Shown here: positions 5,278 through 15,049 of the stretch, in pieces | Layout: the number at the start of each line of letters is the position of its first letter | Position numbering within the stretch: position 1 is the first letter of the stretch | Assembly (NCBI GenBank): GCA_902598295.1 | Contig: CACKBA010000012.1 | Coordinates: forward strand, 1 to 32,656 | Origin: an uncultured Bacteroidota bacterium | Lineage (GTDB): Bacteria; Bacteroidota; Bacteroidia; Flavobacteriales; Flavobacteriaceae | Length of the DNA stretch: 32,656 nt | Reading direction: 5' to 3' | Program-made: the position numbers and the translations under genes | The notes under the pieces: generated by a model | Seen by the model: the letters and a program-made list of their open reading frames with translations, nothing else | Databases searched by the model: none | What the model was told of the DNA's origin: nothing

Positions 5278-8034
5278 ATGAAATATATTATAATATTATT
5301 ATTTCCCTATTTGATTTTCTCTCAAGTCAGTATCAGTGGTGAAATTAAAGATCAAACTGGATATCCAATCATGGGAGCCAATATTATTGCTGTAAATAAT
5401 GAAACTCAAATTTTAGATGGTTTTGGCATCTCTAATGATAATGGATATTTCAGTTTAAATCTAAAAAAAGACACAGAATTTAACATTAAAATCACATTTA
5501 TTGGATATAAGCCAGTTGAATTAAATATATCACTAAGTGAAGATACTGTTAAAGATTTTATTCTTGAGGAACAAGCTGAGGCACTTGATGAAGTTGAGTT
5601 GGTGTATGAAATGCCTGTAGAAATTAAAGGTGACACGATTGTATACAGTGCGGATGCTTTTAACACAGGAACTGAAAAAAAATTATCTGATGTTTTAGCA
5701 AATATGCCCGGAATTGAAGTTAATGAAGATGGAAGAATTGAAGTAGAGGGACAAGAAGTAAGAAAAATACAAATTGAGGGCAAAGATTTTTTTGATGGTG
5801 ATACAAAACTAGCCGCTCAAAATTTGCCAGCTAAGGCAGTTGGAAAAGTTGAAGTATTAAGAAACTTTACGGAAGTTGGACAACTAAGAAGCGTTCAAAA
5901 CAATGAGGACAACTTTGCTATTAATATTAGACTAAAGGAGGGAAAAGATAAATTTTGGTTTGGTGAAATTTTAGCTGGAACAGGACCTGACGATATTCAT
6001 ATGATTGCTCCAAAAATATTTTATTATGATAAACAATTTAATTTTAGTGTACTTGGTAATTCAAATGATGTGGGAGCTCCTGCTTTAAGCAGAAGAGATT
6101 TTTATAGGTTTTCGGGTGGATTTAATAATTTAAATTCAAGAGCTGGAACATCAATTAATATAAGTTCAGATTTAGCAGGAATTGGAAGCCTGCAAAACAA
6201 CAGGGCAAAGTTAATTGAATCTGAATTCGGCGCAGCTAATTTTTCTGTTAATAATGACAAAGGACTTGAAATTTCTGGTTTTAGTGTTTTTACAACAGTC
6301 ACTAATGATATTGAGGAGCAAATTAAAAGAACTTACAATGCCACCGAGGTTGTTGAAAATACTAGTGAATATTCTCTTCAAAAGAGTACACTCGAACTTT
6401 ATAAATTTAGTCTTGAGTACGAACCAAGTGAAATTTTTCAGTTGGAATACAATATATTGCTTAATAGTTCCGATCAATCAGAGGTCAATGATTTGACCTC
6501 TATATATGGTAGATTGAATGATAGGGTAGAGGAAAACCTTGACTTAACGAGAACTCAAACTCCTAAAGCCCTAAACCAAGAATTAAAAGTATATTATACT
6601 TTGAATGATAATCACATATTTTCATTTGAAGCACAGCACTTGGATCAAACTGAAGATCCTATTGGGAGAGCAGTGAGGGACAGGAACCCATTCTTGTCAT
6701 TAATTCCTTTTGACTCAGATGTACAGAGATTTGATATTTCTCAAAATAGGTTAATTGAAACACAAAAACTGGAAGCAAAATTGGATTATTTTTACCTGAT
6801 TAATAATCAATCAAATATTAATCTAAGTATTGGTTTCACCAATGTTAATCAAAATTACTTTTCAAATTTTGATCAGTTTTTAGATGACGGCAGAAGAAAA
6901 TTGTTTGATGATGATCAATTCAATAATGATGTAGATTTTAGTTTCAAGGACCTTTATTTTGCCCTCAATTACAGAATTAGAACAGGAATATTTACAATTG
7001 ACCCAGGTTTAACACTTCATTTTTATGAAAATAACAACACCCAACTGGGGGTGACATATGCAAGAGACATTTCAGATATAAGACCAAACTTAAGAGTTAA
7101 TATGCAGTTCAAGAAGAATGAAAATTTAAGGTTTACATATAGAAAAAATACCCAATTTACGGATGTTAATAATATTTCGGAGGGTTATGTTTTTAATAAT
7201 TATAACAGCATATTTAAAGGAAATAGAGAGTTGGAAGCGGCAATAGTTAATTCATATAATTTGAATTACAGAAGTATTAACCAATTTACTTTTACAAATA
7301 TTTTCTCGAACATATCCTATTCCAAAAGAGAAAACTCTATTCAATCACGAGCTGCAATAGATGGTATTAACTCAGTCAGAACAGCGGACAATTCAATATT
7401 TCCCAGGGAAACCTATTCTGCGAGAGCCAGATTAGATAAGCGGTTTAAAAATATTAAAATAAATTTGAGTGCTAATATTAGATATAGTGAGTTTTCAAAT
7501 ATTATTAATGATGTGGTTAATAATGCCGAGAGTTTTAACCAAGATTATGAAGCAAGCTTAGAAACAAACTTTAGAGATAAACCAAACTTTGAGATAGGAT
7601 TAAAATACAATCTAAATAATTATAAGAATGCAAACATCGAAAATAAATTTGTGAGAGAGACGCCGTTTATCAGGACTGATGCATATTTTGGAAGAGGATT
7701 TGTATTCACAGCAGAGTACAGTTATAATAAATACAAAAATCAAGATCAAGTATTGAATTACTTTAGGTTCCTCGATGCAGATATTTCTTACAACAAGGAA
7801 GGTTCGAAATGGGAGTATTCTGTCGGCATAACTAATTTATTAAACGATACTTCTACCAATAGAGACTCATTTAATCAGTTTTTTACTCAAACAAGAAGTT
7901 ATATAATTCAACCCAGGTATATACTTTTTAAACTTAAATATGATTTGACTCTGTTTGGAGGTAAAGAGAAAAAAAATAATCAAAATCAACAAAAAAATAG
8001 AAGAGGTAACTCTGGGGGAGGTCGTCTTAGATGA
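5278..8034 (+). CDS. TonB-dependent receptor-like outer membrane barrel with carboxypeptidase-regulatory-like domain
   Basis: This 918-residue protein has a signal peptide (about 1-16, MKYIIILLFPYLIFSQ), then a carboxypeptidase regulatory-like beta-sandwich (about 18-100, ISGEIKDQTGYPIMGANI). A plug-like region follows (KKLSDVLANMPGIEVNEDGRIEVEGQ, roughly 135-160), and the rest is a long run of alternating aromatic and polar beta strands. It probably forms an outer membrane barrel with the GLPGLI protein made just upstream. I see no obvious TonB box. The protein does not end on an aromatic residue as classical barrels do, but runs on into a basic tail (KEKKNNQNQQKNRRGNSGGG) and ends RLR. The transported substrate is unknown. 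Confidence 0.85.
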   Translation: MKYIIILLFPYLIFSQVSISGEIKDQTGYPIMGANIIAVNNETQILDGFGISNDNGYFSLNLKKDTEFNIKITFIGYKPVELNISLSEDTVKDFILEEQAEALDEVELVYEMPVEIKGDTIVYSADAFNTGTEKKLSDVLANMPGIEVNEDGRIEVEGQEVRKIQIEGKDFFDGDTKLAAQNLPAKAVGKVEVLRNFTEVGQLRSVQNNEDNFAINIRLKEGKDKFWFGEILAGTGPDDIHMIAPKIFYYDKQFNFSVLGNSNDVGAPALSRRDFYRFSGGFNNLNSRAGTSINISSDLAGIGSLQNNRAKLIESEFGAANFSVNNDKGLEISGFSVFTTVTNDIEEQIKRTYNATEVVENTSEYSLQKSTLELYKFSLEYEPSEIFQLEYNILLNSSDQSEVNDLTSIYGRLNDRVEENLDLTRTQTPKALNQELKVYYTLNDNHIFSFEAQHLDQTEDPIGRAVRDRNPFLSLIPFDSDVQRFDISQNRLIETQKLEAKLDYFYLINNQSNINLSIGFTNVNQNYFSNFDQFLDDGRRKLFDDDQFNNDVDFSFKDLYFALNYRIRTGIFTIDPGLTLHFYENNNTQLGVTYARDISDIRPNLRVNMQFKKNENLRFTYRKNTQFTDVNNISEGYVFNNYNSIFKGNRELEAAIVNSYNLNYRSINQFTFTNIFSNISYSKRENSIQSRAAIDGINSVRTADNSIFPRETYSARARLDKRFKNIKINLSANIRYSEFSNIINDVVNNAESFNQDYEASLETNFRDKPNFEIGLKYNLNNYKNANIENKFVRETPFIRTDAYFGRGFVFTAEYSYNKYKNQDQVLNYFRFLDADISYNKEGSKWEYSVGITNLLNDTSTNRDSFNQFFTQTRSYIIQPRYILFKLKYDLTLFGGKEKKNNQNQQKNRRGNSGGGRLR

Positions 8035-8050
8035 TAATATTTTAGGTAAT

Positions 8051-8058
8051 TAATTTTG
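8051..8058 (+). promoter_or_regulatory. Predicted -7 box of the aromatic amino acid operon
   Basis: TAATTTTG matches TAnnTTTG exactly. A weak -33 element (TTAG, 8027-8030, where TTG is expected) lies 20 nt upstream, over the end of the preceding gene. Transcription would begin near 8064, giving a short leader of about 25 nt before the leader-peptide ATG at 8091. Confidence 0.5.
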
Positions 8059-8090
8059 TGATAACTAAATACTATATTACATTTGAAGGC

Positions 8091-8165
8091 ATGTTAACAA
8101 AAATTTATTATCAAATTTTTTCTTTTTTCTTTTACTACCAGTATAAGTTCAGGATTTTTTGTTAA
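8091..8165 (+). CDS. Phe/Tyr-rich leader peptide of the pheA operon (putative)
   Basis: A 24-codon open frame runs from the ATG at 8091 to a double stop, TAA TAA, at 8163-8168. Six codons are Phe (residues 10, 12, 13, 14, 20, 23) and five are Tyr (6, 7, 15, 16, 18), with an uninterrupted run FFFYY at 8124-8138. No other gene here begins like this. The frame lies between a predicted promoter and a strong terminator, directly before genes that make Phe and Tyr. This is the classic layout of an attenuation leader whose translation senses charged tRNA-Phe and tRNA-Tyr. An in-frame GTG at 8058 could extend it, but that codon falls in the -7 box. The T-rich stretch could give some Phe codons by chance; the Tyr codons and the RNA structure argue against that. 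Confidence 0.78.
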   Translation: MLTKIYYQIFSFFFYYQYKFRIFC

Positions 8166-8216
8166 TAAATGTAAAAATTTAAGCGATGAGTCCTGATAAT
8201 CAGGACTTTTTTTTTT
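8149..8216 (+). promoter_or_regulatory. Transcription attenuator: alternative antiterminator and terminator
   Basis: Segment 8149-8157 (TCAGGATTT) can pair with 8188-8196, giving six Watson-Crick pairs plus U-A and two G-U pairs. Segment 8189-8196 can instead pair perfectly with 8200-8207 as a terminator stem. The two structures exclude each other. The upstream segment lies inside the last codons of the leader peptide gene. A ribosome that reaches the stop at 8163 covers it, freeing the terminator; one stalled in the aromatic run at 8124-8138 leaves it free to form the antiterminator. The geometry therefore fits ribosome-mediated attenuation. Confidence 0.75.
8189..8216 (+). terminator. Intrinsic terminator of the leader, just before pheA
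   Basis: AGTCCTGA (8189-8196) and TCAGGACT (8200-8207) form an 8-bp perfect hairpin with a TAA loop, followed by ten consecutive T (8207-8216). It is the strongest intrinsic terminator in the window, and it sits 4 nt before the pheA start rather than at an operon end, which points to regulation. Confidence 0.88.
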
Positions 8217-8220
8217 GATT

Positions 8221-9039
8221 ATGTTAGTATCTATTCAGGGTATAAAAGGTTCTTATCATCACGACGTTGCTTGTGCGTTATATGGAGATAAAGTAAATAT
8301 TTTAGAATGTTTATCATTTGATAAGATGGCAGAAAGTGTTTTTGAATCAAAAGCACAAATAGGAATTATGGCAATTGAAAACTCAATTGCAGGTTCCATA
8401 ATTCCAAACTATGCTATAATTGATAAACTAAATTTAAAGATTGTAGGTGAGTATTATATTAATATAAATCATAACTTGTTGGTCTACAAGGGAGTGAAAA
8501 TTTCTGATGTTGAAAAAATATCTTCCCATCCTATGGCATTTTTACAGTGCAAGGATTACCTAAAAAAAATTGATAAGATACTTATTGAAGATGTAGATAC
8601 TGCTCATGTTGCAAAATTAATTTCGGAACAAAAATTAAAAAATGTTGCTGCAATCGCTAGCGTAAATGCAGCAAAAATTTATGGATTGAAAATTTTGGAA
8701 AAAAATATACAATCTGTAAACTATAATCAAACTCGCTTTGTGATAATATCAAAAAAAGTCGATCCAAAAATAAAAGAGCTAGCAAATAAAGCTTCCATTA
8801 AATTTATCTTGAGTCATAGAAATGGAAGTCTTGCAAACGTTTTAAATATAATTGCAAACTATGATATAAATCTAACAAAAATTCAAAGCATTCCAATTGT
8901 TGAATCACCATGGAAATACTCTTTTTTTGTTGACTTAACTTTTCCAAGTTTAAAGAATTATAGAAATTGTTTCAATGATTTAATGTCAGTTTCTGAGGAT
9001 ATTAAAGAATTTGGAGTTTATAATAATTTTAAAAAATGA
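8221..9039 (+). CDS. pheA: Prephenate dehydratase with C-terminal ACT domain
   Basis: This 272-residue enzyme converts prephenate to phenylpyruvate, the committed step to phenylalanine. It opens with SIQGIKGSYHHDVA, has the family IENSIAGSI motif, the catalytic TRF (NYNQTRFVI), and a C-terminal ACT domain (GSLANVLNII, NLTKIQSIP, KYSFFVDL). The Phe-binding ESRP motif of well-studied PheA enzymes is QSIP here. A TTG at 8215 opens the same frame but lies in the terminator T run, so the ATG at 8221 is chosen. No chorismate mutase domain is fused; that activity comes from the gene at 11037. The stop overlaps the next start (ATGA). Confidence 0.93.
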   Translation: MLVSIQGIKGSYHHDVACALYGDKVNILECLSFDKMAESVFESKAQIGIMAIENSIAGSIIPNYAIIDKLNLKIVGEYYININHNLLVYKGVKISDVEKISSHPMAFLQCKDYLKKIDKILIEDVDTAHVAKLISEQKLKNVAAIASVNAAKIYGLKILEKNIQSVNYNQTRFVIISKKVDPKIKELANKASIKFILSHRNGSLANVLNIIANYDINLTKIQSIPIVESPWKYSFFVDLTFPSLKNYRNCFNDLMSVSEDIKEFGVYNNFKK

Positions 9040-10184
9040 TAAAACCTGCGCAAAGATTAAACGATATTAAAGAGTACTACTTTTCAACAAAGTTGAGGGA
9101 GATTAGTGAACTTAACAGAAGAGGTAAAAATATAATTAATATGGGAATTGGTAATCCTGATTTATCACCACCTGAAAATGTAAGCAATGCACTAGAAAAA
9201 GCAACAAAAGATAGTGGTTCGCACAAGTATCAACCTTACAAGGGTATTAATCAACTTAGAATGAGTATCTCAGATTTTTACAGAAAAAATTACAATGTAT
9301 CCTTGGATTATGAGAACAACATCTTACCTCTAATCGGTTCAAAAGAAGGGATAATGCATATTTCATTAGCATTTCTTAATAAAGGTGATAAAGTTTTAAT
9401 ACCAAATCCAGGTTATCCAAGTTATAAATCAATATCAAAATTAGTAGGTGCAGAACCACTGTTTTACCCTCTTCTTGAAAAAAATAATTGGCTTCCAGAT
9501 TTAGATTCACTAAAATTATTAGTATCCGATAATGTAAAATTGATGTGGATAAATTATCCTAATATGCCAACAGGTAAAAATTCAAATATTGAGTTTTTTA
9601 AAAAAATATATGATTTTGCAGCTTCTAATGATATTCTTGTAATTAATGATAATCCTTACAGCTTTATTTTAAATGAGAACCCACTGAGCTTTTTGTCTGT
9701 TGATTCCAGTTTTAATCATTGTTTGGAACTTAATTCATTGAGTAAGTCCCACAATATGGCAGGATGGAGAGTTGGTATGGTTGTGGGTTCCAAAAAAAAT
9801 ATAGATACAATTCTTAAGGTTAAATCTAATATCGATTCTGGTATGTATTATGGTATTCAAAAGGGTGCAATTGAGGCACTGTGTTTGAACAGGTCATGGT
9901 ACACATCACTCAATAAGATTTACAGAAAAAGAAGAGAAATTGTTTATAAAATTTGCGATAAACTAAAGTTGACATATGATAAAAATTCATCTGGTATGTT
10001 TGTTTGGGCAAAAATCAAAAGCCTAGATATATCATCAACGGAATTTGTTGATAATCTTCTTTACAATAAAGAAATTTTTATTACCCCAGGATCAATTTTT
10101 GGAACAAATGGTGAAGGGTATGTTAGGCTTTCACTCTGTTTGAGTCAAGATAAATTAAAAGAGGCATTAAATAAATTATTATGA
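9036..10184 (+). CDS. PLP-dependent class I aminotransferase, likely aromatic
   Basis: This 382-residue fold-type I aminotransferase has the PLP-binding Lys237 in SLSKSHNMAGWRVG, the NYPNMPTG signature (173-180), Asp205 and Tyr208 in NDNPY, and the carboxylate-binding Arg in YVRLSLCL near the C-terminus. Its place between prephenate dehydratase and prephenate dehydrogenase, with 4-nt overlaps on both sides, suggests that it transaminates phenylpyruvate and 4-hydroxyphenylpyruvate to Phe and Tyr. Aspartate or other 2-oxo acid substrates cannot be excluded from sequence. The NNPTG consensus reads NMPTG. Confidence 0.88.
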   Translation: MIKPAQRLNDIKEYYFSTKLREISELNRRGKNIINMGIGNPDLSPPENVSNALEKATKDSGSHKYQPYKGINQLRMSISDFYRKNYNVSLDYENNILPLIGSKEGIMHISLAFLNKGDKVLIPNPGYPSYKSISKLVGAEPLFYPLLEKNNWLPDLDSLKLLVSDNVKLMWINYPNMPTGKNSNIEFFKKIYDFAASNDILVINDNPYSFILNENPLSFLSVDSSFNHCLELNSLSKSHNMAGWRVGMVVGSKKNIDTILKVKSNIDSGMYYGIQKGAIEALCLNRSWYTSLNKIYRKRREIVYKICDKLKLTYDKNSSGMFVWAKIKSLDISSTEFVDNLLYNKEIFITPGSIFGTNGEGYVRLSLCLSQDKLKEALNKLL

Positions 10185-11035
10185 AACTTGGTATAATAGG
10201 TATTGGTTTAATGGGAGGCTCTTTTGCTCATGATTTTCGATCTACATATAAAAATTCAAAAATTTATGGCTTTGATGTCGACATTGAAAATTGTCAATAT
10301 TCAATTGACAATAAAATTGTGGATGAATTATTAAATGAAACAAGTTGTAAAGAGTTAGATTTTCTTATTGTTTCAGTACCTGTTCATATTATACCTAATG
10401 TTATTAAAAAGTATTTAGATTTTGTTGGACCCAATACATTAGTTATTGATTTGGGTTCAACCAAAAACAGTATATGTAATTTTTTAGATACTCATCCAAA
10501 AAGAGATCAATTCTTAGCAGCACATCCAATTGCAGGCACAGAGAATAGTGGTCCAAAATCTGCTGTTAAAGACCTATATAAAAATTCGACAATTATTATA
10601 TGTGAGTCTGATAAAACTAGGTTAGAATTGCTGGAAAAAGCCTTTAAATTATTTAAAAATTTAAAGATGAAAATTATTGATATGAATCCCTTAGACCACG
10701 ATAAAAATATTGCTTATGTATCTCATTTATCTCACATATCATCTTTCATGTTAGCTAAAACCGTTATTGAAAAGAAATTACTTAGAAAAAATATTTTTGA
10801 TTTAGCAGGCAGTGGTTTTGAGTCAACTGTCAGGTTAGCTAAAAGTTCACCTGAAACATGGAGCTCAATTTTCAATGATAATAAATCCAACATTTTAGAA
10901 GCGTTAAATGAGTATATTGATAACTTAAACAACATAAAAAGTCTAATAGAAAAAAGTAAAAATGATTTAATTTTTGATGAGTTAAATAAAATAAATTTAA
11001 TAAGAGAAATTTTATTAGGAATTAAAATAAAATAA
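10181..11035 (+). CDS. tyrA: Prephenate dehydrogenase
   Basis: This 284-residue NAD-dependent enzyme oxidatively decarboxylates prephenate to 4-hydroxyphenylpyruvate for tyrosine. The Rossmann glycine motif GIGLMGGSF is at 7-15, the conserved HPIAGTENSGP at 115-125 carries the substrate-site His115, and SHLSH is at 181-185. There is no ACT or chorismate mutase extension, so no built-in Tyr feedback domain is visible. It overlaps the aminotransferase by 4 nt and is followed after 1 nt by the DAHP synthase fusion gene. Confidence 0.92.
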   Translation: MKLGIIGIGLMGGSFAHDFRSTYKNSKIYGFDVDIENCQYSIDNKIVDELLNETSCKELDFLIVSVPVHIIPNVIKKYLDFVGPNTLVIDLGSTKNSICNFLDTHPKRDQFLAAHPIAGTENSGPKSAVKDLYKNSTIIICESDKTRLELLEKAFKLFKNLKMKIIDMNPLDHDKNIAYVSHLSHISSFMLAKTVIEKKLLRKNIFDLAGSGFESTVRLAKSSPETWSSIFNDNKSNILEALNEYIDNLNNIKSLIEKSKNDLIFDELNKINLIREILLGIKIK

Positions 11036-11036
11036 A

Positions 11037-12119
11037 ATGAAAAATAATACTAAACTTAAAGGTTGGCTAGACGATTTTAATCTTGATCACCCATTGGTGA
11101 TCGCTGGACCTTGTAGTGCAGAAACTGAATCCCAGGTTTTGCAAATTGCTCATGAACTAAAAAATAGTGATGTTTCAATTTTTAGAGCTGGTATTTGGAA
11201 ACCCAGAACTCGCCCAGGAAATTTTGAAGGTGTTGGATCTATAGGTTTAAAATGGCTTCAGAAAGTGAAACAAGAAACAGGACTTTTAATAACAACTGAA
11301 GTTGCAAATCAAAATCATGTTAAACTTGCTCTTGATCATGATGTAGATGTTCTATGGATTGGAGCTAGATCAACTGTTAGTCCTTTTATAGTTCAAGAAA
11401 TTGCAGATGCACTCAAAAATACAGATAAAATTGTGCTTTTGAAGAATCCTGTTAATCCTGATCTTTCCCTATGGTATGGTGGGATTGAAAGATTGTATAC
11501 TGCTAATATTAAAAAACTAGGTGTTATACATAGAGGTTTTTCAACCTACACTAAGACAAAATTTAGAAATAATCCTGAATGGCAGATTCCAATTGAACTA
11601 CAAAATAGGTTTCCAGATTTGCCATTGATTTGTGATCCCTCTCACATATGTGGAAGAAGAGATATTATTCAAGAAATTTCTCAAAAAGCACTTGACCTAA
11701 ACTTTGATGGTTTGATGATTGAAACTCATAATGACCCCGACACTGCTTGGAGTGATGCTGCACAACAAATAACTCCAAAAAATTTAATTAAACTCATGAA
11801 AGATTTGGTAATTAGGAACGAGTTGATTGAAGAGCGTAGTTTTATTAATGAATTAGAAAATTTGAGGGAAAAAATTGATGATGCAGATTCACAAATTTTG
11901 GATATACTTGGAAATAGAATGAAGATCTCTGATGAAATTGGTAAGATTAAGAAAAAACAAAATGTTGCAATTCTACAGTCGGAAAGATGGAAAGATATTT
12001 TAAAAAAAATGATTTCAGACGGTAAAGAAAAGGGGTTAAGTGAAGATTTTATTTTAAAAATATTTAAAGCTATTCATCAAGAATCAATTAATCATCAAGA
12101 AAAAATTTTGAAAAATTAA
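11037..12119 (+). CDS. Bifunctional DAHP synthase / chorismate mutase
   Basis: This 360-residue fusion carries the first step of the shikimate pathway and the branch-point step to prephenate. The N-terminal part (about 1-260) is a DAHP synthase of the KDO8P-synthase-like type: GPCSAETE with metal ligand Cys26, KPRTRPGNF (55-63), CDPSHICGRR with His203, and ETHNDPDTAWSDA supplying Glu229 and Asp240. The C-terminal part (about 270-358) is an AroQ-type all-helical chorismate mutase with Arg277, Arg294 and Lys305 in the expected order. This domain order is the usual one in Bacteroidota. It is preceded by tyrA and its stop overlaps the rsgA start (TAATG). Confidence 0.93.
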   Translation: MKNNTKLKGWLDDFNLDHPLVIAGPCSAETESQVLQIAHELKNSDVSIFRAGIWKPRTRPGNFEGVGSIGLKWLQKVKQETGLLITTEVANQNHVKLALDHDVDVLWIGARSTVSPFIVQEIADALKNTDKIVLLKNPVNPDLSLWYGGIERLYTANIKKLGVIHRGFSTYTKTKFRNNPEWQIPIELQNRFPDLPLICDPSHICGRRDIIQEISQKALDLNFDGLMIETHNDPDTAWSDAAQQITPKNLIKLMKDLVIRNELIEERSFINELENLREKIDDADSQILDILGNRMKISDEIGKIKKKQNVAILQSERWKDILKKMISDGKEKGLSEDFILKIFKAIHQESINHQEKILKN

Positions 12120-13030
12120 TGCAAGGTTTAGTTTACAAGTCAACAGGGAGCTGGTACTCGGTAAAAGATAAAAAAAGCAGTTTTATTGAATGTAAACTTG
12201 CTGGAAAACTAAGAAATTCAGATTTAAAGTCTACAAATCCTGTATGTACTGGTGACTTTGTAACAATAAAAATTGATAAAAATAAAACACCTGTCATCGA
12301 ATCGGTTTTAAATCGAAAAAATTACATAATAAGAAAGTCAGTTAAACTCTCAAAACAATATCAAATAATAGCTTCTAATATAGACATATGTTTTTTGATA
12401 ATAACTATTTCTAGACCTCAAACATCTACAATGTTTATTGACAGATTTTTGGCATCCAATTTCGCATATAATATTGATACGTGTCTTTTGTTTAATAAGA
12501 TTGATGACTTGGAAATTGAAGAAAAATCCAAAGTAGATGAATTATTCGATTTATATAAAAGTATAGGTTATAAATGTTTTAAAATCTCAGGAAAAAAATT
12601 ATTAAATCTTGATTCCTTAGTATCTGAAATGAAAAACAAAACCTGTGTATTTACAGGTCACAGTGGTTCTGGGAAATCAACTTTGTTGAACTCAATAGAT
12701 AGTTCATTAAATATTAAAACATCCCCAATTTCAAGTTCAAATTTGACGGGTCAACATACCACCACATTTTCAAAGATGTATGATTTAAAAAACGGATCAA
12801 AAATAATTGATACACCTGGAATTAAAGGCTTCGGACTCTATGATTTCGATGAGGCTCAGCTTAAAGATTGTTTTATGGAGTTTTTGAAATACAATGACTG
12901 TAAATACAACGACTGTTTACACAAAGACGAACCAGGTTGTGATGTAAAGTCAGCAGTTGATAAGGGGTTTATTTCTGAAAGTAGATATAAAAATTATTTG
13001 GAACTTTTTTCCGATTTAAATGGTATTTAA
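12119..13030 (+). CDS. rsgA: Ribosome small subunit-dependent GTPase A
   Basis: This 303-residue circularly permuted GTPase helps the late maturation of the 30S subunit. An N-terminal OB fold (about 1-70) is followed by G4 NKID (126-129), then G1 GHSGSGKST (180-188), then G3 DTPG (231-234), the permuted order typical of RsgA. The C-terminal zinc site has Cys261, Cys266, His268 and Cys274. The start overlaps the previous stop, so it is translated as part of the aromatic operon. Confidence 0.95.
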   Translation: MQGLVYKSTGSWYSVKDKKSSFIECKLAGKLRNSDLKSTNPVCTGDFVTIKIDKNKTPVIESVLNRKNYIIRKSVKLSKQYQIIASNIDICFLIITISRPQTSTMFIDRFLASNFAYNIDTCLLFNKIDDLEIEEKSKVDELFDLYKSIGYKCFKISGKKLLNLDSLVSEMKNKTCVFTGHSGSGKSTLLNSIDSSLNIKTSPISSSNLTGQHTTTFSKMYDLKNGSKIIDTPGIKGFGLYDFDEAQLKDCFMEFLKYNDCKYNDCLHKDEPGCDVKSAVDKGFISESRYKNYLELFSDLNGI

Positions 13031-13036
13031 TTTGAA

Positions 13037-13489
13037 ATGAAAATAGTTATTCAGAGGGTCAAAAGTGCAGAACTTTTTGTTGAAAACAAGTTTTACTCAA
13101 AAATAGGATTTGGATTGATGGTATTAGTTGCTATATCTAAGGAAGACAAACAGGAAGATATAAATTGGATAGCCAACAAATTAGTGAATTTGAGAATATT
13201 TAATGATGAAAATAATCAAATGAACCTTTCAGTCACTGATGTTGAAGGAGATTTAATGATTGTTAGCCAATTTACATTATACGCATCTACAAAAAAAGGC
13301 AATAGACCATCGTTTATACAATCTGCTAGTGGAAAATTTGCAGAAAAAGTATATTTAGATTTCATTGATATGCTTAACAGAATTTATAAGTTTAAAGTAA
13401 AAACTGGTAAATTTGGTACATATATGAATATAGTTTTAAATAATGATGGACCTGTTACTATCGTTATTGATTCTAAATCCAAAGAATAG
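13037..13489 (+). CDS. dtd: D-aminoacyl-tRNA deacylase
   Basis: This 150-residue enzyme removes D-amino acids, classically D-tyrosine, from mischarged tRNA. The family motifs SQFTLYA (77-83) and NDGPVT (136-141, with the Gly-cis-Pro pair Gly138-Pro139) are both present and the length is standard. It follows rsgA after 6 bp inside an operon for Phe and Tyr synthesis, a suggestive setting for an enzyme that polices D-Tyr-tRNA. Confidence 0.95.
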   Translation: MKIVIQRVKSAELFVENKFYSKIGFGLMVLVAISKEDKQEDINWIANKLVNLRIFNDENNQMNLSVTDVEGDLMIVSQFTLYASTKKGNRPSFIQSASGKFAEKVYLDFIDMLNRIYKFKVKTGKFGTYMNIVLNNDGPVTIVIDSKSKE

Positions 13490-13490
13490 T

Positions 13491-13817
13491 ATGAACTTAA
13501 AAAAATTACAAATAGTAGTTGATGAATGGATAAAAAAATATGGAGTTAGATATTTCGATGAACTTACTAATATGGCTCAATTGACTGAAGAAGTTGGGGA
13601 AGTTGCAAGAATTATATCTCGAAAGTATGGTGAACAGTCTTTTAAAGAAAATGAAGAGTTATCTGATTTGGGTGAGGAACTTGCAGATGTTTTATTTGTT
13701 TTAATTTGTATTGCAAATCAAACTGGTATTGATCTAGAGTCATCATTCATAAATAAATTGAATCAAAAAACAGCACGTGATAAATCAAGACATATGGATA
13801 ATCCTAAACTCAAGTGA
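13491..13817 (+). CDS. MazG-like nucleotide pyrophosphohydrolase
   Basis: This 108-residue all-alpha protein resembles the single-domain MazG-like NTP pyrophosphohydrolases. Two acidic clusters that bind Mg2+ are visible: LTEEVGEVAR and the later LGEELADVLFVL. The same frame stays open 16 codons further upstream, but those codons lie inside dtd, and the ATG at 13491 immediately follows the dtd stop, so it is the better start. The substrate (canonical or damaged NTP) is unknown. Its stop overlaps the aroA GTG start. Confidence 0.85.
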   Translation: MNLKKLQIVVDEWIKKYGVRYFDELTNMAQLTEEVGEVARIISRKYGEQSFKENEELSDLGEELADVLFVLICIANQTGIDLESSFINKLNQKTARDKSRHMDNPKLK

Positions 13818-15049
13818 ACACTCTTAAAATTTCAGGATTTAATATAGTCTCTAACGAAAAGATTATTATTTCTGGGTCAAAAAGTGAATCAAATAGAGTT
13901 TTAATTCTGAAATATTTATTTAACAGTAACATAATAATCAATAATTTATCAACCTCTGACGACACCAAAGTTTTATTAAAGGCTTTAGAAAATCAAACAG
14001 ATATAATTGACATCCATCATGCGGGTACAGCAATGAGATTCTTAACATCATTTTATGCTGTAACTAATAAAAAAAATATAACATTGACCGGTTCGGATAG
14101 AATGCTACAAAGACCCATAGGAGAACTTGTTGATTCGCTAAAAAGTTTAGGTGCAGATATTATTTATGAGAAAGAAATAGGTTATCCCCCATTGAGATTT
14201 AATGGTTTTAATCAAATGAATAAATCAATTGAGTTAAGATCCGATATCAGCAGTCAATTTATTTCTTCACTAATGTTAGTTGCTCCCTATCTTAATGATG
14301 GTTTACAAATAAAGTTAGTTGGAAACATTTTTTCTAGACCATATATTTTATTAACATGTGAGTTAATGAAAAACTTTGGTTTTGATTGCTTTATTAATAA
14401 AGATGAAATCAAAATTATTCCACACAAAAAAATATCAATAAAAAATTATTCTATAGAATCTGACTGGAGTTCTGCCTCTTATTTGTATTCAATTGTTGCT
14501 CTTTCTGGTATTGAGTTAAATTTATCCTCATTCAAATCAAACAGTTTACAAGGTGATAGCAAATTGTCCAAACTTTATGAAAATTTTGGAGTTAAAACTT
14601 ATTTTGAAGATGACGAAATTATTTTAAAAAAATCAAAATCTCATAGAATAAAAAAATTTATTGAATTAAACCTAATTGAAAATCCTGACCTAGCACAAAC
14701 AATAATAGTTACCAGTCTTGGTTTATCAGTTCATACAAAATTGACTGGATTAAACACTCTGAAGATTAAAGAAACCGACAGGTTAATTGCATTAAAAAAT
14801 GAAATTACTAAATTCAATACGGATGTAATAATTGATGAAAACTCTATTGAAATCAAAAACTTTCCAAAAAAACTTCCTGAAAACGTTGAAATAGATACCT
14901 ATAACGATCATAGAATGGCATTAGCATTTTCGCCATTATCTGTTTTGGTTAACTTAGTAATCAATGATTGTAATGTAATATCCAAATCATTCCCAGAATA
15001 TTGGACTATTTTAAAAAAATTAAATTTTAATTTAAAATTTGATAATTAA
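13814..15049 (+). CDS. aroA: 3-phosphoshikimate 1-carboxyvinyltransferase (EPSP synthase)
   Basis: This 411-residue enzyme joins shikimate-3-phosphate and PEP, the sixth step to chorismate. GSKSESNR (21-28) holds the PEP/S3P-binding Lys23, followed by AGTAMRFLTSF, GSDRMLQRPI, the SSQF element, WSSASY, KIKETDRL and YNDHRMAL, all in family order. The length is a little below the usual 420-440. The start is GTG, overlapping the previous TGA (GTGA), and no ATG fits. An AT-only inverted repeat covers its last codons. It is probably the last gene of the attenuated operon, because a good promoter for queA follows. Confidence 0.93.
   Translation: MNTLKISGFNIVSNEKIIISGSKSESNRVLILKYLFNSNIIINNLSTSDDTKVLLKALENQTDIIDIHHAGTAMRFLTSFYAVTNKKNITLTGSDRMLQRPIGELVDSLKSLGADIIYEKEIGYPPLRFNGFNQMNKSIELRSDISSQFISSLMLVAPYLNDGLQIKLVGNIFSRPYILLTCELMKNFGFDCFINKDEIKIIPHKKISIKNYSIESDWSSASYLYSIVALSGIELNLSSFKSNSLQGDSKLSKLYENFGVKTYFEDDEIILKKSKSHRIKKFIELNLIENPDLAQTIIVTSLGLSVHTKLTGLNTLKIKETDRLIALKNEITKFNTDVIIDENSIEIKNFPKKLPENVEIDTYNDHRMALAFSPLSVLVNLVINDCNVISKSFPEYWTILKKLNFNLKFDN

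Follow-up and report, generated by a model that had tools for sequence, protein, structure and literature searches.

The operon for phenylalanine and tyrosine synthesis in a marine flavobacterium is preceded by what is very probably a ribosome-mediated transcription attenuator set by the supply of Phe and Tyr, a reading to which we give a probability of roughly 0.92. Its leader frame, terminator, alternative pairing, covariation and switch position were read from sequence and comparison, and from these we infer translation of the leader, stalling of the ribosome, its timing with the polymerase and a change in read-through, which would respond to Phe/Tyr supply. The element falls in a known kind, the ribosome-mediated leader-peptide attenuator: we find a frame rich in codons for the products, a terminator before the first gene, an antiterminator that excludes this terminator (its folding upon a stall being a prediction) and a cognate operon. 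Since nearly all relatives carry both leader and terminator, it appears to be a classic and conserved ribosome-sensing attenuator of known type. New here are an explicit leader for two amino acids, triple covariation, spread across the class and a predicted near-leaderless start in the genus.

Leader, terminator and operon in the window

The window, by which we mean the whole stretch of 32,656 nucleotides analysed, belongs to a 1.24-Mb genome that is 75% complete. The leader and terminator sit between an outer-membrane gene, which ends at 8034, and pheA, which begins at 8221; all features given below lie on the forward strand. An ATG at 8091 opens the leader frame MLTKIYYQIFSFFFYYQYKFRIFC, which extends with its two stops to 8168: codon 24 occupies 8160-8162 and is followed by TAA at 8163-8165 and a second TAA at 8166-8168. 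Eleven of the 24 codons specify Phe or Tyr, and the sequence thus bears out the original observation of a 24-codon frame with 11 such codons and a double stop. Conservation and a Phe/Tyr enrichment specific to this frame argue that it encodes a leader peptide. Folding downstream of a stalled ribosome marks the stretch from Y6 to Y16 (8106-8138), which holds eight of the 11 Phe/Tyr codons, as the predicted control codons.

A putative intrinsic terminator, called from its sequence and its conservation, follows at 8189-8216. Its hairpin, AGTCCTGA-TAA-TCAGGACT, spans 8189-8207 with a perfect 8-bp stem, whose right arm (R4) lies at 8200-8207. The stem is as originally described; the first of the ten T assigned to the tail (8207-8216), however, is the final stem base, which leaves nine T after the stem. 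The left arm of the terminator belongs to R3, GAGTCCTGA (8188-8196), which would be common to terminator and antiterminator, as judged from pairing and comparison of arms. Its proposed partner, the antiterminator left arm R2, TCAGGATTT (8149-8157), lies within the final leader codons and can form 9 bp with R3, two of them G-U pairs. A complementarity of TCAGGA to the left arm of the terminator had been noted before; the pairing holds, but R2 is longer than that motif, at 9 nt.

Around R2, the segment GGATTTTTTGTTA (8152-8164) is almost unchanging across the loci of the genus. It is also present in four loci (L014-L016 and L020) whose leaders stop upstream of it, which indicates that it is conserved for the RNA (or DNA) and not for the peptide. 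The segment continues past GGATTT, and R2-R3 pairing accounts for only part of that portion.

Upstream of the leader we predict a Bacteroidota promoter at 8056-8085 from its sequence and its conservation in the genus, with a TTG near -33 and a -7 box, TACATTTG, at 8078-8085, where a TAnnTTTG box had been correctly recognized. Box and TTG are retained throughout the genus, 4-7 nt ahead of the leader ATG (5 in the window); elsewhere in the family, box and ATG are usually separated by 16-22 nt. A scan for sigma-70 type promoters gave background level only and was left out of the promoter call. In Flavobacterium johnsoniae the -7 box lies 4-5 bases from the transcription start (PMC6847099), and this spacing would place the start in the window at about 8090-8091. 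The promoter position therefore predicts that the leader in this genus is leaderless or nearly so. In the flavobacteria studied, only a small share of mRNAs is leaderless, amounting to 5.5% in F. psychrophilum according to its transcriptome study (PMC9723704).

The operon downstream makes Phe and Tyr, the amino acids that the leader would sense. The order pheA, aminotransferase, tyrA and DAHP synthase/chorismate mutase, proposed earlier from the letters of the sequence, is confirmed by profile matches. The first gene, pheA (8221-9039), encodes a prephenate dehydratase with an ACT domain (Pfam PF00800, E 2.5e-51). Downstream of it lies a class I/II aminotransferase gene (9036-10184; PF00155), as it does in 139 of 146 related loci. 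Next come tyrA, for prephenate dehydrogenase (10181-11035; NF006307, 328.9 bits against a cut-off of 295), and a DAHP synthase fused to chorismate mutase (11037-12119; PF00793 and PF01817). Later in the same close-packed run lies aroA, for EPSP synthase (13814-15049), whose TIGR01356 score of 265.4 bits just misses the cut-off of 287.25. Between the fused gene and aroA (12119-15049) we observed rsgA, a D-aminoacyl-tRNA deacylase gene (dtd) and a MazG-like gene; given the tight packing of the run, Phe/Tyr control may extend to these three genes as well.

Conservation among relatives

The search for PheA covered the genus (23 genomes), the family (about 300) and samples at the level of order, class and phylum, together with a set of named genomes. 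In the genome collection, near relatives are represented by assemblies from single cells and metagenomes that bear the labels uncultured Bacteroidetes, Flavobacteriaceae or Cryomorphaceae. In 273 distinct pheA upstream regions a script located a strong terminator and then the preceding short frame richest in Phe/Tyr. Of 168 distinct Flavobacteriaceae regions, 167 have leader and terminator ahead of pheA: 18/18 regions from the genus, 148/149 from elsewhere in the family and the window's own region. Further out, both were present in 7/20 regions from the remainder of the order, 31/59 from the remainder of the class and 4/26 from outside the class, so that roughly half of the other Bacteroidia sampled carry them. 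Few pheA matches were obtained in the class; when the class was searched again, this time with PF00800, the query proved not to be the cause. None of 819 dinucleotide-preserving shuffles (three per region) combined a strong terminator with a Phe/Tyr-rich leader. Set against 167/168 family regions, this indicates that the element does not arise by chance.

The leader frame holds on average 8.9 Phe/Tyr codons, compared with 3.1 and 3.8 in the other two frames, and it was the frame richest in these codons in all 218 leaders kept. Both Phe and Tyr occur in every distinct leader.

Several minor observations were made in the same set of regions. The four regions from outside the class (L081, L083, L223 and L226) could reflect either an older origin or transfer along with pheA. 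A Trp codon is present in 80 of 142 distinct family leaders (for example L026 and L100), mostly three codons ahead of the Phe/Tyr block (YFWNGFYFYFFF), and in none of the phe leaders of the window's genus; it may mean that a third amino acid is sensed, or else reflect an RNA constraint. One record titled as a 'Rhizobium sp. Q54' metagenome-assembled genome (L150, CALPLL020000010.1) holds a Flavobacterium-type pheA, 50% identical to the window PheA, together with a phe leader, and its contig or title thus looks misassigned.

Covariation of the three arms

To assess the R2-R3 pairing we scored the best ungapped pairing between the end of each leader and the left arm of its terminator, and compared it with the scores obtained after permuting arms between sequences. 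When each of 23 families contributed a single sequence, own pairs reached a mean of 18.1 compared to 13.4 for permuted pairs (sd 0.58), a value attained in 0 of 20,000 permutations. The 44 distinct arms from outside the family gave 19.5 against 14.2 (0/1000). The 109 distinct arms inside it gave 18.4 against 14.7 (0/300), in a permutation that ignores kinship; the test with one sequence per family is the safeguard against kinship in these family-wide permutations. As a control, the 60 bases before the leader gave 10.4 against 10.5 outside the family, which is no pairing excess, and 10.8 against 10.5 (4/100) inside it, a marginal one.

Judged by these permutations, the predicted R2-R3 pairing is lineage-specific. 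The arms R2, R3 and R4 vary jointly (at R2 positions 2 and 3, for instance, G-C-G is replaced by A-T-A) and occur as types such as CGGGACT/AGTCCCG/CGGGACT, CAGGATT/AGTCCTG/CAGGACT and TGAGACT/AGTCTCG/CGAGGCT. A comparison of pheA upstream regions in relatives had been proposed along with the original prediction; run here, it shows that relatives retain a frame rich in aromatic codons together with terminator and alternative pairing, and that the three arms covary, which supports the interpretation of the element as an attenuator.

Predicted switch and mechanism

When the ribosome is placed at any of Y6-Y16 in the window, the freed RNA is predicted to form the hairpin of R2 with R3, at about -16.6 kcal/mol, both before and after R4 has been made. 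With the ribosome at codon 18 or later the terminator fold alone remains, and the predicted switch therefore lies between codons 16 and 18. Forcing either helix gives a consistent picture. With RNA free from 8145 (a stall at Y15) the antiterminator reaches -16.6 kcal/mol against -14.6 for the terminator, and with RNA free from 8155 the values are -9.2 and -14.6. With the whole leader free (from 8090) the terminator is favoured, at -23.0 against -20.0 for the antiterminator. If the whole leader is free and folding is considered before R4 is made, the antiterminator is predicted in the window, and likewise in 191 of 218 leaders with the ribosome at codon 1. With the ribosome at the stop, the terminator is predicted in 218/218.

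Across the 218 leaders, the final codon still compatible with the antiterminator falls no more than three codons from the end of the Phe/Tyr block, mostly at +1. Tyr 18 and Phe codons 20 and 23 of the window lie at or past the switch, and slow decoding at these codons alone is predicted to leave the antiterminator unformed. No clear conservation was seen for a 1:2 hairpin like that of E. coli.

The folding test applied leader by leader is weak taken alone, as a loose threshold called an antiterminator in 157 of 300 shuffled leaders. We therefore dropped minimum-energy folding as sole proof of the switch in favour of the R2-R3 permutation test, and place the weight on conservation, covariation and switch position.

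Based on these results, we propose that a ribosome would begin the leader frame at or very near the transcript's 5' end. Under a shortage of charged tRNA-Phe or tRNA-Tyr, it would stall on codons 6-16 and leave R2 unpaired; the free R2 would then pair with the emerging R3, and the polymerase would continue into pheA. When both charged tRNAs are plentiful, the ribosome would reach the stop codons and cover R2, so that R3 would pair with R4 and transcription would stop in the T run.

Alternative explanations

One rival account would take the hairpin for a mere terminator of the upstream gene at 5278-8034, which encodes the outer-membrane protein, and would explain the Phe/Tyr frame as a by-product of T-rich DNA. 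The gene does end on the same strand 155 bases ahead of the hairpin, and the leader and hairpin region is indeed T-rich. A predicted promoter, however, is located between the gene and the hairpin, the element recurs in 167/168 family regions and 0/819 shuffles, and the Phe/Tyr enrichment is confined to one frame. The covariation of R2 with R3 already contradicts this account, which we regard as very hard to credit. The proximity of hairpin and gene could also mean that the hairpin serves mainly to hide the start of pheA and block its translation, since in the genus the T run finishes just a few bases ahead of the pheA ATG. Among related loci, though, the distance from hairpin to pheA ranges from 6 to 235 bases and the hairpin with its T run is retained; we consider this explanation improbable, if slightly less so than the previous one.

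Pairs of terminator and antiterminator are common to riboswitches, T-boxes and systems governed by RNA-binding proteins, and the window element could in principle be under such ligand or protein control, with the peptide incidental. Against this, an Rfam scan of the window gave no family at its gathering score, T-box and metabolite riboswitches included, and long conserved structure is absent outside R2-R4. The part that is conserved is instead the Phe/Tyr codon block at the switch point. Control by a ligand or protein thus seems scarcely plausible, and attenuation by a translating ribosome is the reading that we retain.

Relation to known systems

The E. coli pheL element (RF01859, Phe_leader) works alike: a Phe-rich leader and a terminator lie ahead of pheA, and the stalled ribosome selects between two hairpins. 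The window scores 17.6 bits against RF01859, for which the gathering score is 55, and it thus stands outside the pheL sequence family despite the similar working. In contrast to pheL, the window leader has both Phe and Tyr codons, in an operon that makes both amino acids, and lacks a Shine-Dalgarno start; in the genus it is predicted leaderless. Within Bacteroidetes, the Bacteroid-trp RNA (RF01692) is likewise a leader-peptide element with cognate codons, and two of four trpE loci tested reach its gathering score. It differs in its Trp codons and trp genes, and the phe element of the window has no match to it. Early comparative work on attenuators by Vitreschak and colleagues in 2004 may reportedly list Bacteroidetes cases.

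A phe attenuator in the phylum has been described in part, through the sibling Bacteroid-trp and a pheA 5' element in the F. psychrophilum transcriptome study of 2021 (PMC9723704). The main text of that study describes strong signs that operons for amino acid biosynthesis are attenuated through leader peptides. It also lists structured 5' elements upstream of pheA and of hisG, which are shared by further genera of the Flavobacteriaceae and have no Rfam match. The same main text gives no leader sequence, antiterminator or covariation test and does not call the pheA element an attenuator. For this listed element we now provide an explicit leader, the predicted switch and the phylogenetic spread, including that outside the family. 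Besides these two, no earlier description was found in the open-access literature searched.

Leaders of other amino acid operons

We lean slightly towards a broader reading, in which leader-peptide attenuation would be a class-wide control of phe/tyr, his, trp and ilv operons that operates without Shine-Dalgarno sequences. A pioneer ribosome would, in the genus, start on a leaderless AUG, and two amino acids, possibly with Trp in many relatives, would be sensed. Translation in Bacteroidota initiates without Shine-Dalgarno pairing (PMC6847099, PMC9976891), and if the class-wide reading is true, transcription and translation by such ribosomes must be closely timed. The literature searched contained no report, positive or negative, of transcription-translation coupling in Bacteroidota, and the phe element offers a compact and testable reporter for ribosome-polymerase timing in this phylum.

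The script used for the phe leaders was also applied to his, trp and ilv operons of Flavobacteriaceae. Upstream of hisG (L319-L348), His-rich leaders with terminators were present in 30/30 loci, for example MTFIQSHHHHFHTCTQAS in L335; we thereby supply a peptide for the hisG element, which PMC9723704 names without one in its main text. Upstream of trpE (L349-L378), Trp-rich leaders, mostly with WWW, and terminators were likewise present in 30/30. Ile/Val-rich leaders with terminators preceded ilvD in 14 of 30 loci (L379-L408; for example MKLRVVIISVIVIIIIPW in L381), and the ilvD loci lacking a leader were mostly without a terminator inside the 650 bases examined. These leaders suggest that attenuation is a general device in Flavobacteriaceae, which supports our reading of the phe element. 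In the window's own genome, inspection by eye revealed no Ile/Val/Leu leader at ilv, and its trpE (L409) is preceded by a GTG-started WW leader with a terminator, 4 bases past a -7-like box, TATATTCG.
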